From the NCBI GenBank assembly GCA_016124905.1, contig WGMV01000035.1:1-37579 (forward strand): a stretch of 37,579 nt of DNA, in the 5' to 3' direction. The translations under genes and the position numbers were made by a program. Positions 28,906-35,858 of this stretch are shown piece after piece. Numbering within the stretch: position 1 is the stretch's first letter; each line of letters opens with the position of its first letter. The notes under the pieces are model-generated. The model searched no databases and was not told where the DNA came from. It was given only the letters and a program-made list of their open reading frames with translations. Source of the stretch: a bacterium (GTDB taxonomy: Bacteria > Pseudomonadota > Alphaproteobacteria > Rickettsiales > RI-342).

Positions 28906-30528
28906 TCATGCTCTGGAGGGCTGAAGCTCCGGCTGATGTTCAAGCGTCGTCTGCGTGAGCAGTTGATCCGGCACCAGCTTGTGCGCTTCCTCGCGGATAA
29001 TGTCGCAGAGCTTCTCAATCGTGTAGATCTTCTGGTGCTCATAATTGGTCACGTAACCGCGCAGCATGGTGGCTGTGTCGAAAATCGCCTTTTCATCGTC
29101 GGCAATGCCTTTGCCAACAAGGATGCGGGCATTGAGCTGGGCTGCCTGGTCGATATCGAAATCGGTCACGTTACTGTCTGCCTGAATCTGCAGCACGCGG
29201 CTGATATTGATCCAGACGCTCGACATGAACATATTGAAGTCAAAGCCCTTTTTCCCATCCTTGAACTCGGTCGAGAAAGAGGCGAACATGCGGAACACGG
29301 TGTTGGAGACGATATCAAGCGCGCCTGAAATAACCTGGCCGTTGATGCGCAGTGCGTCCCACACGCCCACATGCTTCACCAGGTCGGTCAGGTTGCGAAG
29401 ATCGAAGCGATCCAGCAGTTTGTACATAAAGCGGCCAAAATTGGTACGCGGGCTGAATTGTTCGCCCACGCCAAAACGGTCCATGAAATTCTCAAGCGCG
29501 ATACCGTATGGCTTGTGGCCGCTCGTGCGTTCCCACGGCTGCTGTTTTTCCTTCAGGCGCTCAATGATGTCGCGCAGTTCCGAATCCTCATGAATACGGT
29601 TCGCCACATCCTTGTTTTCCTGAAAATAGCGCTCACGGTCATCCTTACGCAGGGTCACCGTGGTAAAAAACTTGGACATGAAGGAAAGCACGCCGTTCAT
29701 GAACAGAGAGCTGCCGCTGAACACATGCGCGCCCTTGCCCTCTTCATGGCCTTTCATGGCCGTGCGCACTTCCTGGGCGCCGGCGGCAATGGTCATGATA
29801 TCTCCCGGCATTTTGCCGATATCGGTCATCACCTGCGAGTTGCGCTTGATGAAATCACCGACATTCTGTTCGCGGTCGTAGCTGCGCACCGCATCCGCCG
29901 TCTGGCCTTCCAGATGGTAGTAATTAACCAGGTCTTCCTTGAATTTTTTCATCGCGCCCTGGTCGAAACGGCGCGCGCCGCCCACGGCCAGCAGCGGCAG
30001 GTTCCACACCGTGCTGTTAAGCGCGGAATTGAGAATATTGTGGTTGCCGCGCTCCATGCCGGAAAGCACGGAATGAACCTGGGATACCTGCCCCAGCCAG
30101 CCGCGAAGCTTCATCGGGTCCATGGAATCGCGGAATTCGCGCAGCCCGCGCTCAAGCGTGGCTTCCTCTTTCAGCTCCGGCAAGGCGCCATCGCCCTGCA
30201 ATTGGCCGGAAATCTGGTGGAAATACCCCTTGCCCTTAAGATGGAACAACTGCTGGGGAACTTTGCTCTCAATACGTTTGCCCGTTTCGGGGTCGAGGGA
30301 GAATTCCGTTTCCTCAAACACCTGATCGGCGATCATTTCCAGCCCTTCATGAGCTGTTACAAGGCCGCGAACCTTTTCAATGGCCTGCGTATCTGAAGGA
30401 TCAAAATATAGCGTTGCCCTGAAGCCGGGCTTTTTTACATCATAATCCTGGCTGACCTCAGCGAACTGAAAGCCGGTTTTTGTTTCCGCCTGGCGGGATT
30501 TTTTCGGAAAATAATAACTTGAAGCCAC
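28906..30528 (-). CDS. Unrecognised 540-residue protein
   Basis: A frame starting with GTG at 30528, seven bases after a strong GGAGG, encodes MASSYYFPKKSRQ and so on. I do not recognise the family. There is no signal peptide. The protein looks mostly helical and is rich in charged residues. Weakly hydrophobic stretches lie near residues 168-182 (NSTVWNLPLLAVGGA) and 272-295 (FSGSSLFMNGVLSFMSKFFTTVTL), too polar to be sure membrane helices. Near residues 395-445, DFNMFMSSVWINISRVLQIQ loosely lines up with LDMEELFNSAAMLFAEKVNM of the 726-residue protein. The promoter region has an 11-bp-period GTCACA repeat, and the gene ends at the hairpin at 28852-28881. A structural, effector or predation-related role would be speculation. 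Confidence 0.85.
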   Translation of the reverse strand: MASSYYFPKKSRQAETKTGFQFAEVSQDYDVKKPGFRATLYFDPSDTQAIEKVRGLVTAHEGLEMIADQVFEETEFSLDPETGKRIESKVPQQLFHLKGKGYFHQISGQLQGDGALPELKEEATLERGLREFRDSMDPMKLRGWLGQVSQVHSVLSGMERGNHNILNSALNSTVWNLPLLAVGGARRFDQGAMKKFKEDLVNYYHLEGQTADAVRSYDREQNVGDFIKRNSQVMTDIGKMPGDIMTIAAGAQEVRTAMKGHEEGKGAHVFSGSSLFMNGVLSFMSKFFTTVTLRKDDRERYFQENKDVANRIHEDSELRDIIERLKEKQQPWERTSGHKPYGIALENFMDRFGVGEQFSPRTNFGRFMYKLLDRFDLRNLTDLVKHVGVWDALRINGQVISGALDIVSNTVFRMFASFSTEFKDGKKGFDFNMFMSSVWINISRVLQIQADSNVTDFDIDQAAQLNARILVGKGIADDEKAIFDTATMLRGYVTNYEHQKIYTIEKLCDIIREEAHKLVPDQLLTQTTLEHQPELQPSRA

Positions 30529-30757: not shown

Positions 30758-31219
30758 TTAAGCGGCTTGATCCTGGTCATTGCGCATCAGCAGCACATAG
30801 GCCGCGGATGCATCCTGCACCCCGCGCAGCTGCTTGCGAAGATCCTGATTTCTCAGGCGTCGGCTGACCGTTGCCATGGTTTGCAGCCGCGTGGCTGCCT
30901 CCTGCGCCGGGTAACAAAGAACCACGACCATGTCGATGGGTATATGATCGCCCGCCTTCATATCCAGCGGTTTTGAAAGAAGAAAAAACAACAATTTGGT
31001 GCTTGCCGTCTCACAGGGCAGCGGCACCACGGCCAGCCCGTCCTGCATATAGGCATCCTTCCAGGCATCCGCGTTGGCCACAATCTGCGCAACCGCAGGC
31101 TTGGCCAACCCCAGGCGGTGATGCATGCCGTCGCCGATGGCATTGCGCAAGCTTTTAACGCTTGCAGCATGCACACCGGCATAAATGCATTTTTCCTCAA
31201 TAAGTTTTGAAAGCGCCAT
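30758..31219 (-). CDS. PtsN (EIIA-Ntr)-like protein lacking the active-site histidines
   Basis: This is a 153-residue protein with the length and layout of EIIA-Ntr, the last phosphate acceptor of the nitrogen PTS. The homologous segments are IDMVVVLCYPAQEAATRLQTMATVSRRLRNQDLRKQLRG. Typical PtsN proteins have GIAIPH with the phosphorylated His and a second His in HLKALA. Here the first segment is GLAVVPLPCE (61-70), with no His, and the second begins RLQTMA, with Arg111 at the His place. The usual preceding segment (LGSTGVGNG-like) is also replaced. The gene follows hpf by 12 bases, the usual hpf-ptsN order, which supports the homology. It should not take a phosphate in the normal way and may act as an unphosphorylatable regulator or be drifting. 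Confidence 0.8.
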   Translation of the reverse strand: MALSKLIEEKCIYAGVHAASVKSLRNAIGDGMHHRLGLAKPAVAQIVANADAWKDAYMQDGLAVVPLPCETASTKLLFFLLSKPLDMKAGDHIPIDMVVVLCYPAQEAATRLQTMATVSRRLRNQDLRKQLRGVQDASAAYVLLMRNDQDQAA

Positions 31220-31231
31220 GCTTACTGGTAC

Positions 31232-31828
31232 CTACCCGGCTTTACGCATGCTGTTTACCACCATACTGGGGTCGATCCAGGCAATATTGCCGTCCGGGCG
31301 GCGATACACCGCATTCAGGCTGTCGCTGCCGTTATTGATGAACAGCAGCACCGGCAGGTCTTCCAGGTCCAGCTTCATCACGGCCTCGCTCACCGTCAGG
31401 TGCAGCAGGTCCATCGGCAGTTCGGCAATCACCAGCGGCGTGTCGTCATGCGCCTCCTCCTCATGGCCGGAGAACACATGCTGGGTCACTTCCGCCAGCT
31501 TGATCTTGTTGCTTTCCTGCTTGGGCTTGTCATGGCCTTTCAGGCGGCGCTTGTAGCGGCGCAGCTGTTTCTCAATACGGTCGGCCGCGGCATCAAAGCT
31601 TTTATAGGCATCGTCATGGCCTGCAGTGGATTTCACCACCATATGCGCATGGGTGCCCGTGTTCAGCGTGATATCGGTCACAACCAGATGGTTTTCCTTG
31701 TGAAACACCACCGCGACATCCACCACCCGATCCAGATATTTGCTAACCCCCGCCTCGATGCGCGCATCGACATGGCTTTTAAGGGAAGCGCCGACATCCA
31801 TATTCTTACCGGAAACGCGAACTTGCAT
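31232..31828 (-). CDS. hpf: Ribosome hibernation-promoting factor, long form
   Basis: This protein binds resting ribosomes and makes 100S dimers. It has 198 residues: an N-terminal S30AE domain (residues about 1-105; MQVRVSGKNMDVGASLKSHVDARI) and, after a charged linker, the C-terminal dimerisation domain (residues about 140-195; LPMDLLHLTVSEAVMKLDLEDLPVLLFIN). The two-domain long form is usual outside gammaproteobacteria. AAGGA lies eight bases before the ATG at 31828. It has its own promoter in the gap after the cpaF-like gene. Confidence 0.95.
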   Translation of the reverse strand: MQVRVSGKNMDVGASLKSHVDARIEAGVSKYLDRVVDVAVVFHKENHLVVTDITLNTGTHAHMVVKSTAGHDDAYKSFDAAADRIEKQLRRYKRRLKGHDKPKQESNKIKLAEVTQHVFSGHEEEAHDDTPLVIAELPMDLLHLTVSEAVMKLDLEDLPVLLFINNGSDSLNAVYRRPDGNIAWIDPSMVVNSMRKAG

Positions 31829-31921: not shown

Positions 31922-33496
31922 TTACAGTTTCGGCAATTTGACACCCAGGATATTGCCCAGTTTCTCATACATTCCGTAGTAAGCGATCCTCCTCAGTGTT
32001 TTGGGCATAATGCCCGTCCAGACAAAATCTCCATGCAGCCTTCCCTGTTTGGTTTCCCCCGTGACGTTGAAGGTGAACAGGTCCTGCATGGTGATGACGT
32101 CCCCCTCCACCCCGCAGACTTCGGTGATGTAGATAATGCGGCGGTGACCGTCGCGCATGCGGCTCACCTGGATGATGAGATGCAATGCCGAGGCAATCTG
32201 CGCCCGGATGGCGCGCAGCGTGAAATTGGGGTTGTTCAGGGTGATCATGTTTTCAAGCCGGCTCAACGCATCCCGCGGGTGGTTGGCGTGGATGGTGCTC
32301 ATGGAGCCTTCATGGCCCGTATTCATGGCCTGCATCATGTCATAGGCCTCAGCCCCCCTCACCTCGCCGACGATGATACGGTCCGGTCGCATGCGTAGCG
32401 CGTTCTTCACCAGATCGCGCATGCTCACCTCATCCTCAATGCGCCCGCGCGTGCTCAAAGGCTTGGTTTCCAGACGCACCACATGCGGCTGACGCAACTG
32501 AAGTTCCGCCGCGTCCTCCACCGTCACGATACGTTCAGCCGGGTCGATATGCTGGGCGATGGCATTGAGCAAGGTGGTTTTACCGGAGCCCGTACCGCCG
32601 GAAATCAGCACATTCATGCGGCAAAGCCCCGCAATCTTCAGGAATTCGGCCAATTGAGCCGACACGTTCCCCTGTTCCTGCATCTTATCCAGCGATATCC
32701 CCCGGCGGGAGAATTTACGGATGGAGATGGTCGGCCCGTCCACGGCCAGCGGCGGCGCGATGACGTTAACCCGGCTCCCGTCGATCAGGCGCGCATCCAC
32801 CATGGGGCGGTGCGGGTCCAGTCGGCGGCCGATTTTGGAAACGATCTTGTCCGCAATGGCCAGCACTTCCTCGTCGCTGTTGAAGCGAAACCCGGTATCC
32901 TCAAGCTTGCCGTGACGTTCCACGAATACGCTGTGCGTGCCGTTCACCAGAATATCATTAACACTGTCATCTTCATGAAAAGGCTGCAGCGGCCCCAATT
33001 CATCCGGTTTCAGTTCACCGATGGAGGTGGAGGACATGAAATGCGCCACGTTCGGCGAAATATCCTCATTCTGGCTGGCCTGCTTCAACAACTGCTGAAT
33101 GCCCTGCAGCGCCTGCCCCACCTGGGTCATCGCCGCCTGGCCTTCATGTACATCATGCTCACTGGCCTTTTTAGCGGCCTCCGGCTGGCCGACCATCCGC
33201 TGCATCAGCGCATGCAGGGCCAGCTGCCATTCCGGCGTGTTCTGCTGAAAGAAAAGCTCCACTTCGTCACGCCCGATCACCTCGAGCTCGCAATCCTCAA
33301 CAGCAGTGGCGTCGCAATTCTTAGGCTGCTGAAACCAGCCTGCCTCCCCAAATATATTAATGGGGCTCACCTGGCGGATGCTGTCATCCCCCAATGTCAG
33401 CAGAACCTTGCCTTTTTTCAGCACATAGGCCTGAAAATCCGTGCTGCCTTTGCGGTAAATCACCTGCCCGGCTGGAATATGTAGAATCGATGGCAT
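31922..33496 (-). CDS. CpaF/TadA-type secretion ATPase with N-terminal cNMP-binding-like domain
   Basis: The protein has 524 residues. Residues about 1-105 form a cyclic-nucleotide-binding-like beta-roll (GQVIYRKGSTDFQAYVLKKGKV; FGEAGWFQQPKNCDAT at 49-64). A linker of about 65 residues follows, then a full type II/IV secretion ATPase: Walker A GGTGSGKTT at 300-308, Asp box TVEDAAEL at 325-332, Walker B RPDRIIVGEVRG at 370-381, and His box STIHANHP at 400-407. The ATPase belongs with CpaF/TadA/VirB11-like proteins. The phosphate-binding Arg of cAMP receptors, expected after FGE, is Cys61 here, so cAMP binding is doubtful. No pilin, tadB/C or secretin gene is nearby. The start is ATG 33496, with AGGGGG six bases upstream. 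The gene is divergent from the 726-residue protein gene. Confidence 0.93.
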   Translation of the reverse strand: MPSILHIPAGQVIYRKGSTDFQAYVLKKGKVLLTLGDDSIRQVSPINIFGEAGWFQQPKNCDATAVEDCELEVIGRDEVELFFQQNTPEWQLALHALMQRMVGQPEAAKKASEHDVHEGQAAMTQVGQALQGIQQLLKQASQNEDISPNVAHFMSSTSIGELKPDELGPLQPFHEDDSVNDILVNGTHSVFVERHGKLEDTGFRFNSDEEVLAIADKIVSKIGRRLDPHRPMVDARLIDGSRVNVIAPPLAVDGPTISIRKFSRRGISLDKMQEQGNVSAQLAEFLKIAGLCRMNVLISGGTGSGKTTLLNAIAQHIDPAERIVTVEDAAELQLRQPHVVRLETKPLSTRGRIEDEVSMRDLVKNALRMRPDRIIVGEVRGAEAYDMMQAMNTGHEGSMSTIHANHPRDALSRLENMITLNNPNFTLRAIRAQIASALHLIIQVSRMRDGHRRIIYITEVCGVEGDVITMQDLFTFNVTGETKQGRLHGDFVWTGIMPKTLRRIAYYGMYEKLGNILGVKLPKL

Positions 33497-33677: not shown

Positions 33678-35858
33678 ATGACTGTGCAGGGCGGCAAATT
33701 TCTCGTTGAAGGCATCGCTTATCTGGGCAACAAAAGTTATGCTCCGAGCCATTTGGTTCTGGGCCGTGGCGCTTCCACGGAAGACAGCGGCAAACTGCTG
33801 AATATCCTGAGCAAAAACGGCATTGAACCGCAGCTCAGCACGGTGCGCACCAACGATGGCGACCATCGTTCCATCAGCTTCAGCAAACCGCCGAAAGAAT
33901 TTCGCGGCATGCTGGAGGAGCTGGCCCAGGCCGGCCTGGCTTCCGAAGAGAATATCGCCATTCTGGACCGGATGGCTGCGCTTGAGGATGAAAAACGCGG
34001 CCAGCCCTTCAACCCGCTGACCATTCTTACCAATACGCCGTTTGAGCCCATCTACCAAAAAAACAAGGATTTCAAGGTCGATGCCGGCCCGCTGAAGCCT
34101 TTTGTCAAAAAATTCGTGGAAGGGGTGGAACGCAACCCCGATCAGGTTGCCGCCCTTGCCTATCTGGGCGGGGATACGACCGGCGCCGTATCCAACCCGA
34201 TTTATGACCATAACGCCCTGAAAAAAGCCGGCGGCGGCGAAGGCGTCTTCTATTTTTCCGCCCTTGCCGCCACGGGCATGTACGCGCTTGTGCCGGAAAA
34301 ACACGGCACCAAGGCACAGTCTGAACTGCAGCGTATCCGCACCGAACTCAGCATGGAAGAAGGCGGTATTTCAGCCGGCGAACGCATCCAGCAGGGTGCT
34401 GATACAGTGCGCAACCGTGTCGGCCTGCTTGGTAATGTATTGAACGGCTTCAGCGGCTTCGGCCTCATGATGTCCTCATTCCTACACCGCAACCCGCTTT
34501 CATTCGCCCAGGGCACCATCGTCACCTCCTCCTTTGCCACCTCCGTGGGCCTTGAAGCAGGCGGCGAGAAATTTAGCAAACCGGTGGAAGCCGTTGCCAG
34601 GGCTGCCTCTCCCATCACTCGCCTGCTTCCCCAGTCCGTGCGTGATTACGTCAGCAAGACATGGGAAATCTCCAAAATCGATACCAACCAGCCGATTGCT
34701 TACAACAAAAACCACAATTTCCTTGGTTTTGTCAGCATCGCCTACCAGCTCTTCAATTCCGGCCGCTTCCGCAAACAGGCCGAGCAGAAATACGATGCAG
34801 CCTCCAATCCCGCCTATGCCCTGGTGAAGGCCAGCACCGCCGCCGATGGCTCGGTCAAGCTGGAGCGCAGCGGCAGCTGGAAGGACATTGCCAAAGACGG
34901 CAACGCCCTGCGCGACCACCTCACCATTCTGCGCGACGGCTATGCCCATGTCAGCCCCGAAGGCCGCGTGCATCCGCTGACGGATGAACAGCGCGCCTCC
35001 ATCCGCAGCGGCAGCATCTCCAAAACCGGCGGCGCATTGGCCGACGGCAGCACCGTACTGCCCATTCCCCATGCCCTGGCGGAAGAAGGCTGGAACAAAC
35101 ACGGCAAAAAAGCCGAATGGCGCTACGACCGCAAAAGCGACACGGTGCAATACCGCGAGAATGGCGGCGTATCGCGCAATCTGACCGCTGAAGAAGTCAA
35201 GAAAATGAAGATCGAGCCCGGCCCGGCCGGCTACAACGAGTATTTTCACGACATGGCGCATTACCAGACCGCCATGCGCGATCCGCTTGCCCTGCTTTTC
35301 CGCACCATTTCCACGGCTATTTACGTGGTGGCCAACGGCGTGCTCGGCGGCATCAAGCGCGAGGCCAACTGGCTGGATATGGAAGAGCTGTTCAACAGCG
35401 CCGCCATGCTGTTTGCCGAAAAGGTCAACATGCCCGGCAGCACTCCCGCCAGCCAGCAGCAGTTCCTTCAAAATCTTTCAGAAAAACTTTCCCGCTCCAT
35501 TGAACGGGAAAACGAGACCCGTGAGAAATTCGAGCGCAAAGAACGCATCAAAACCGGCAATGACAGCTTCACCATGCCCCGCCTGGAAAACCTGTCTCCG
35601 GCCCAATGCGCCGATGTTATCGCCCATAAACTGAACAGCTTCGCCAAGGAAGACGCCGCCATCAAACGTCTGGCCGAGGCCCAGCTCATCCAGCACGCCA
35701 AACCGGAAGCCTCCGCTTCGGTTGCGGGTTCGGAACTCACCGCCTCGCTTCAGGCCGAAGCCGACCGCCATCATCATCCGGTGGATTTCACCAACATCGC
35801 CGATCTGGCACGCCAGGCGGCGGCACAGGTGGTCAACGCCCCGGCAATCGCGCTCTAG
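33678..35858 (+). CDS. Unrecognised 726-residue protein
   Basis: A long frame with protein-like composition; I do not know the family. There is no signal peptide. Residues 185-205 (GVFYFSALAATGMYALVP), 250-290 (LLGNVLNGFSGFGLMMSSFLH, then FAQGTIVTSSFATSVGL) and about 525-548 (DPLALLFRTISTAIYVVANGVLGGI) are hydrophobic, so it may enter membrane. The C-terminal 110 residues are helical and charged. The start is uncertain: AGGA at 33672-33675 is only two bases from the ATG at 33678 but eight from a GTG at 33684, which would drop two residues. Parts loosely resemble the 540-residue and left-edge proteins. It is divergent from the secretion ATPase gene, and its stop overlaps the nfuA stop in a shared CTAG. 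Confidence 0.88.
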   Translation: MTVQGGKFLVEGIAYLGNKSYAPSHLVLGRGASTEDSGKLLNILSKNGIEPQLSTVRTNDGDHRSISFSKPPKEFRGMLEELAQAGLASEENIAILDRMAALEDEKRGQPFNPLTILTNTPFEPIYQKNKDFKVDAGPLKPFVKKFVEGVERNPDQVAALAYLGGDTTGAVSNPIYDHNALKKAGGGEGVFYFSALAATGMYALVPEKHGTKAQSELQRIRTELSMEEGGISAGERIQQGADTVRNRVGLLGNVLNGFSGFGLMMSSFLHRNPLSFAQGTIVTSSFATSVGLEAGGEKFSKPVEAVARAASPITRLLPQSVRDYVSKTWEISKIDTNQPIAYNKNHNFLGFVSIAYQLFNSGRFRKQAEQKYDAASNPAYALVKASTAADGSVKLERSGSWKDIAKDGNALRDHLTILRDGYAHVSPEGRVHPLTDEQRASIRSGSISKTGGALADGSTVLPIPHALAEEGWNKHGKKAEWRYDRKSDTVQYRENGGVSRNLTAEEVKKMKIEPGPAGYNEYFHDMAHYQTAMRDPLALLFRTISTAIYVVANGVLGGIKREANWLDMEELFNSAAMLFAEKVNMPGSTPASQQQFLQNLSEKLSRSIERENETREKFERKERIKTGNDSFTMPRLENLSPAQCADVIAHKLNSFAKEDAAIKRLAEAQLIQHAKPEASASVAGSELTASLQAEADRHHHPVDFTNIADLARQAAAQVVNAPAIAL

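Follow-up and report, generated by a model that had tools for sequence, protein, structure and literature searches.

A cyclic-nucleotide-binding-like domain fused to a CpaF-type ATPase

The window, by which we mean the whole analysed stretch of 37,579 nucleotides, is contig C35 of a Rickettsiales genome (G000) of 2.36 Mb, assembled in 47 contigs and 95% complete. The following features of its minus strand are needed for what follows.

31922..33496, minus strand: cNMP-domain/CpaF-type ATPase fusion gene, an uninterrupted frame of 524 aa, with clade membership taken from the tree described below
33239..33481, minus strand: cNMP_binding domain (Pfam PF00027), residues 6-86, with Glu51 present and Lys59 at the phosphate-Arg position
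32168..33001, minus strand: CpaF/T2SSE ATPase domain (Pfam PF00437), residues 166-443, catalytic motifs intact
32420..32464, minus strand: extended pore (central) loop, residues 345-359 (15 residues), without the E-G motif of the Tad CpaF platform contact
31232..31828, minus strand: hpf, encoding a ribosome hibernation-promoting factor of 198 aa that has the C-terminal domain; immediately downstream of the fusion gene, an arrangement shared with relatives
30758..31219, minus strand: ptsN-like EIIA, 153 aa, with a residue other than His at the phospho-acceptor position

The window protein scores 45.3 bits on PF00027, where the curated cut-off is 27.5, and 202 bits on PF00437. The ATPase motifs, which we take to be Walker A (GGTGSGKTT, 300-308), the Asp box (321-334), Walker B (370-381) and the His box (393-406), are all intact, and the original prediction of a single frame joining a cNMP-like N-domain to a complete CpaF ATPase was thereby confirmed. 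No further Tad, pilus or secretion gene had been seen in the window, and none appeared when 30 of its 86 ORFs of at least 100 aa were scanned with Pfam. Two ORFs in the window, at 33678-35858 (726 aa) and 28906-30528 (540 aa), have no Pfam or NCBIfam match.

The top NCBIfam family is TIGR03819 (TadA family), on which the window protein scores 310.6 bits against a cut-off of 373.15. Since the CpaF encoded in this genome's tad cluster also misses the cut-off, with 331.6 bits, the cut-off does not discriminate here, and we dropped the shortfall as an argument against CpaF membership. The protein is neither a VirB11 (TIGR02788, 228.2 bits, cut-off 249.95, as compared to 400.3 for the genome's real VirB11) nor a PilT/PilU by these models (TIGR01420, pilT_fam, 66.1 bits, cut-off 319.1, as compared to 474 and 385 for the genome's two PilT/PilU proteins). 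A promoter search with at most two mismatches gave 50 sigma-54-like sites in the window where 64.8 were expected, and none in the 181-base gap upstream of the fusion gene; sigma-70-like and terminator-like sites were no more frequent than by chance.

The fusion gene belongs to a CpaF paralogue clade

In a tree of 91 CpaF domains, a branch with support 99/97 separates 45 rows from 45 tad rows and L096, which was counted as tad-type by its place in the tree and whose fetched stretch showed no tad gene. On the non-tad side, RpoN, HPF or PtsN lies within 6 kb in 35 of the 45 rows and is absent from that distance in the other 10. The window gene falls in subclade A (34 rows, support 99/86), where it is the first to branch in a midpoint-rooted drawing. 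Ten rows form clade B (support 100/98), a tandem copy upstream of clade A, and one more upstream copy, L063_2222, has a long branch of its own at the base. The window gene is thus found outside a tad cluster and apart from the tad-linked CpaFs, as a member of a vertically inherited paralogue clade, the 'operon CpaF' or clade A. Its ATPase region is 49-64% identical to those of 45 tad-linked CpaFs, and its identity to the CpaF in its own genome's tad cluster is 53-54%.

Clade A was assigned in 45 genomes, 34 by the tree, eight by a fetched locus (one of these eight with no readable His box) and three (G008, G034, G142) by partial genes; 44 loci were long enough for examination. Clade-B copies with Walker motifs kept stand in tandem upstream of clade A in L043, L040, L055, L057, L061, L065 and others, and a possible role for this paralogue is that of a hetero-oligomer partner of clade A. 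In G086 the upstream clade-B-type cpaF (L039:7116-8396) is interrupted by an in-frame stop, which leaves frames of 175 and 237 aa.

Clade A usually lies beside rpoN and/or hpf

In relatives, clade A usually stands beside rpoN and/or hpf of a cluster for LPS transport, sigma-54, ribosome hibernation and PTS-Ntr, often behind clade B. The gene order, in L034 and L043 for example, is rnd-kdsD-lptC-lptA-lptB-rpoN-[cpaF B]-cpaF A-hpf-ptsN-hprK-(rapZ)-EIIAman-HPr, where rnd and kdsD are our own labels for Pfam matches and rapZ was confirmed in L034. Of the 44 clade-A loci, 34 have RpoN and/or HPF encoded on the same strand at a distance of no more than 1.6 kb, and 17 have both. The ten loci away from rpoN and hpf include three that bear the cNMP domain (L035, L036, L045) and at least one (L152) at a contig end. 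The window retains cpaF-hpf-ptsN, with the genome's rpoN at an end of contig C7, and in G008, of the same family, rpoN and cpaF are still adjacent. The original prediction had looked for a partner in the divergent neighbour, whereas it is hpf, ptsN and rpoN that are conserved beside the gene, and the informative hpf and ptsN downstream had been overlooked.

The window's PtsN lacks the phospho-acceptor His, which is kept in 14 of 14 rows from relatives (13 distinct, L016 and L037 being one gene), and HPr has no match in the window's genome, where the PTS-Ntr relay is apparently decaying. As the motor is kept without a recognisable relay, this relay is unlikely to be the motor's input here.

Two arrangements elsewhere in the order were also observed. 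In two genomes of family f23, G042 (L118) and G023 (L089, L154), rpoN has the tad cluster as a near neighbour, at a distance of about 3-4 kb, and the clade-A gene stands with hpf-ptsN on that contig too, tens of kb away from them. The tad-less G041 offers another example of a pilus motor gene close to the sigma-54 gene: some 0.8 kb downstream of its rpoN is a PilT/PilU-family gene (L126:7453-8463) whose 336-aa product exceeds the NCBIfam cut-off with 420.6 bits.

The N-domain is homologous to cNMP-binding domains and carries Lys59 in place of the phosphate-binding Arg

When a profile built from nine homologous N-domains was run against the PDB, 213 sequences matched at E<=1e-3; the best 60 of these are cNMP-domain proteins, among them PKA-R, PKG, CRP-family regulators, ion channels and the Bd1971 EAL enzyme. 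In HMMER alignments, which are modest (16-21 bits over these stretches), P58-K59-N60-C61 pairs with the P-R-A/S-A of PKA-R (3of1, PRAATVVA) and of PKG (5dyk, PRSATIIA). The phosphate-Arg equivalent is accordingly Lys59, with Cys61 paired with Ala, and the nine-row alignment agrees. The proposal that Cys61 had replaced the Arg was therefore in the wrong register, and the accompanying suggestion of a signal 'perhaps not cAMP' no longer has the ground that was given for it, although Lys59 still differs from the canonical Arg. Glu51 of the GE motif is kept in the phosphate-binding cassette. Among the nine aligned N-domains the Arg is present in L034, L111 and L120, the window protein has Lys, and the other five have His, Tyr, Phe or Ala; the GE Glu is kept in seven of nine. 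AlphaFold2 gave no usable model, with low confidence both for the whole protein (mean pLDDT 54.9) and for residues 1-110 alone (40.7).

PF00027 was matched by nine of the 44 clade-A proteins, all of which were scanned (E<=0.001), leaving 35 that showed no cNMP domain; at the same threshold it was matched by 0 of 46 tad-type CpaFs. The clade-B-like proteins L054 and L121 have no PF00027 match at this threshold either. When ten clade-A proteins were scanned singly, seven scored above the PF00027 cut-off (the window protein, L034, L035, L036, L045, L046 and L120), L047 was below it (24.4 bits) and two had no match. The carriers over the cut-off span four families of the order (f1, f12, f16, f20), and the N-domain of L120, from the window's own family (G008), reaches 68 bits.

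Outside the order, none of the matches listed from 385 genomes begins before query residue 118, and none of those listed from 398 genomes begins before model position 71; such searches could miss a CpaF fused to a cNMP domain of another lineage. In a further search ten records cover at least 80% of the query, and two of them were inspected. The Rhizobium etli plasmid match (97% coverage) proved spurious, as its extension falls within an L,D-transpeptidase gene and no cNMP match was obtained for the CpaF. A Photobacterium match was likewise rejected as a fusion, being a 441-aa CpaF that lies in a tad cluster by our reading of the adjacent ORF translations.

The window's genome carries, on contig C13, a pair of adjoining genes (L156:2025-4997), the first CRP-like (258 aa) and the second for a class III cyclase (730 aa), and a cyclic-nucleotide ligand is plausible for this reason. 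The domain could instead be a dimerisation or docking module that has lost ligand binding, a reading compatible with any view of the motor and one to which we give serious weight, at a little under an even chance. It would agree with the varied residues at the Arg position, Lys in the window included, and with the many clade members that do without the domain. The Arg kept in three of the nine aligned domains, the GE Glu kept in seven of the nine and the cyclase and CRP-like genes of the genome argue against it.

The clade-A motor differs from Tad CpaF at the platform-contact loops

Contacts of CpaF with the Tad platform have been predicted for loop 8 (G204, R205, R206, D208) and the central loop (E331, G334) (PMC12019362). 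In Caulobacter crescentus, mutation of D208 or of E331/G332/S333/G334 is described as abolishing pilus formation, with a caution from the authors on expression (PMC11300603). The central loop has 13 residues and the E-G motif in all 43 tad-type rows that could be parsed (46 examined, three not parsed). In contrast, all 34 clade-A rows have a loop of 14-17 residues, and one of them shows the E-G pattern; in clade B and the long-branch relative the loop has 12-15 residues, with the E-G pattern in two of 11. In loop 8 all 46 tad-type rows have Arg at the R206 equivalent and Asp at the D208 equivalent, as compared to four and nine of the 34 clade-A rows, respectively. The window protein has G223 R224 R225 L226 D227, which agrees with the G-R-R-x-D contact, R225 and D227 being kept, and it lacks the central-loop E-G contact. 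Because the central-loop motif is lost in 33 of 34 rows, it is doubtful that clade A engages TadB/TadC.

The catalytic loop carries a signature of its own. Glu396 and His406 are present in 34 of 34 clade-A rows, whereas tad-type rows have Asp396 in 43 of 46 and His406 in none of 46. The clade-specific pore loop and His box were found in loci of nine families.

Platform genes and co-occurrence with Tad

Six T2SSE matches were found in the window's genome, the fusion gene included. One is on C8, where a PilB/PilC pair lies; PilB is its best NCBIfam match, under that model's cut-off. Two PilT/PilU-family proteins are encoded on C3 and a VirB11 on C20, all over their NCBIfam cut-offs, and a tad cluster on C7 has CpaF followed by tadB and tadC. 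A profile search gave four T2SSF matches. Two are domains of a single 405-residue frame, by our reading PilC, and the others we take to be TadB and TadC, so that none of the T2SSF matches in this 95%-complete assembly is a platform gene of the window motor's own. The ATPase had been called 'lone', which is right for the window and wrong for the genome, given the second CpaF on C7. The look for tadB/tadC elsewhere that had been proposed found both of them beside that CpaF, and the idea of a sensor-type N-domain on a CpaF-type motor with possible platform genes elsewhere stands, the candidates being tadB/tadC on C7 and PilB/PilC on C8. Among deep-branching, possibly free-living relatives of Rickettsiales, Tad and type IV pili are reported for Mitibacteraceae (PMC9352585), in a source whose main text makes no mention of CpaF, TadA or rpoN.

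RcpC/CpaB is present in 54 of 174 genomes of the order and rpoN in 78. All 45 clade-A genomes fall within the 54 that carry the Tad gene CpaB/RcpC, and clade A was found in 0 of the 31 rpoN-bearing genomes without RcpC. Nine RcpC-bearing genomes had no clade A found, seven of them less than 90% complete. At the rpoN loci of tad-less genomes, hpf adjoins rpoN with no cpaF between in eight of 20, and in the other 12 hpf was not found within the stretch. We initially regarded this co-occurrence as strong evidence and downgraded it after an RpoN tree had placed the 28 tad-bearing rows all on one side of a single branch (99/97); since it amounts to roughly one phylogenetic event, it is weak evidence.

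A supernumerary Tad-type motor as the preferred reading

Taken together, our sequence comparisons lead us tentatively, at somewhat less than an even chance, to favour a supernumerary Tad-type motor that would be made beside starvation regulators and, in some lineages, controlled by a cNMP-like domain. Clade A would form an additional hexameric motor. As the window's genome shows only PilC, TadB and TadC as platform proteins, the motor would have no platform of its own and would most likely share the Tad machine with the canonical CpaF. It may do so in a different working mode, such as retraction or control of idling, as PilT does relative to PilB. It would be produced together with regulators of starvation and nitrogen status, and where the N-domain is kept, a cyclic mononucleotide or some related ligand may act as its switch. 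The strongest counterpoint is the loss of the platform motif, which fits equally well a motor that has left the pilus altogether.

Such a motor, a platform-free hexameric ATPase derived from CpaF and repurposed with sigma-54, HPF and PTS-Ntr for starvation or envelope control and not for pili, seems to us rather unlikely, yet it is a rival to be weighed. The conserved neighbourhood would suit it, as would the lost contact motif of the central loop, the scarce Asp at the D208 equivalent and the genome's want of an own platform protein. It sits less well with a clade never found without tad genes in the order (45 of 45 genomes, though about one event), with the tad-less rpoN-hpf neighbourhoods that have no clade A (eight of 20 loci) and with motifs that are those of pilus motors. 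Possibly, clade A is merely redundant, a back-up for the CpaF on C7 with the same job, as its identity to the tad-linked CpaFs and its full set of catalytic motifs would allow; we hold this to be improbable, for the clade-specific pore loop and His box in nine families and the conserved location argue for a distinct, selected role. That the fusion is a lone motor with the 726-residue divergent protein as partner or cargo, as first proposed, is very improbable. It has adjacency alone in its favour, and neither Pfam nor NCBIfam (E<=0.01) gave a match for this neighbour, of which no relative turned up at E<=0.001 when the order's 173 other genomes were searched.

Relation to known motors and meaning

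Of the known systems, CpaF/TadA of Tad (type IVc) pili, as in Caulobacter crescentus, shares with the window protein the PF00437 domain, Walker A and B, the Asp and His boxes and the G-R of loop 8. The window gene differs in belonging to a separate clade outside the tad cluster and in its added cNMP domain, and the clade in its longer pore loop (14-17 and not 13 residues) without the E-G motif and in the His at 406. Extension ATPases of the MshE/PilB type are alike in outline, with an N-terminal domain for a nucleotide messenger on a pilus-type ATPase (PMC5013675), but MshEN is another domain, for c-di-GMP, and is not among the window protein's Pfam matches (E<=0.01). With the PilT/PilU retraction ATPases the likeness is in the idea of a second motor beside one platform and of tandem paralogues, whereas the window protein is CpaF-like in sequence. 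The cNMP-EAL enzyme Bd1971, PKA-R and PKG have a sensor domain homologous by sequence, with different output domains and with the Arg that is Lys59 in the window protein.

In a survey of 292 CpaF orthologues three main classes are distinguished, without an IDR, with an IDR and with FHA and IDR, and a cNMP class is not one of the three (PMC12019362). The cNMP-CpaF fusion is an architecture outside these main classes. In a literature search of titles and the starts of abstracts we found no account of such a fusion and none of a CpaF beside rpoN-hpf, which is no proof of absence.

A further-reaching possibility is that some Tad pili of alphaproteobacteria have a second, dedicated motor derived from CpaF, with a remodelled platform loop and a cNMP switch, that would retract or park the pilus on starvation and be inherited beside sigma-54 and hibernation genes. 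In this full form we consider it unlikely. Retraction in pilus systems without a dedicated retraction ATPase has been called an open question, and the generality of CpaF bifunctionality is said to be unknown (PMC11300603). As a conserved extra CpaF that stands beside starvation genes, has altered platform loops and lacks its own platform gene, clade A offers a defined gene for this question of retraction.
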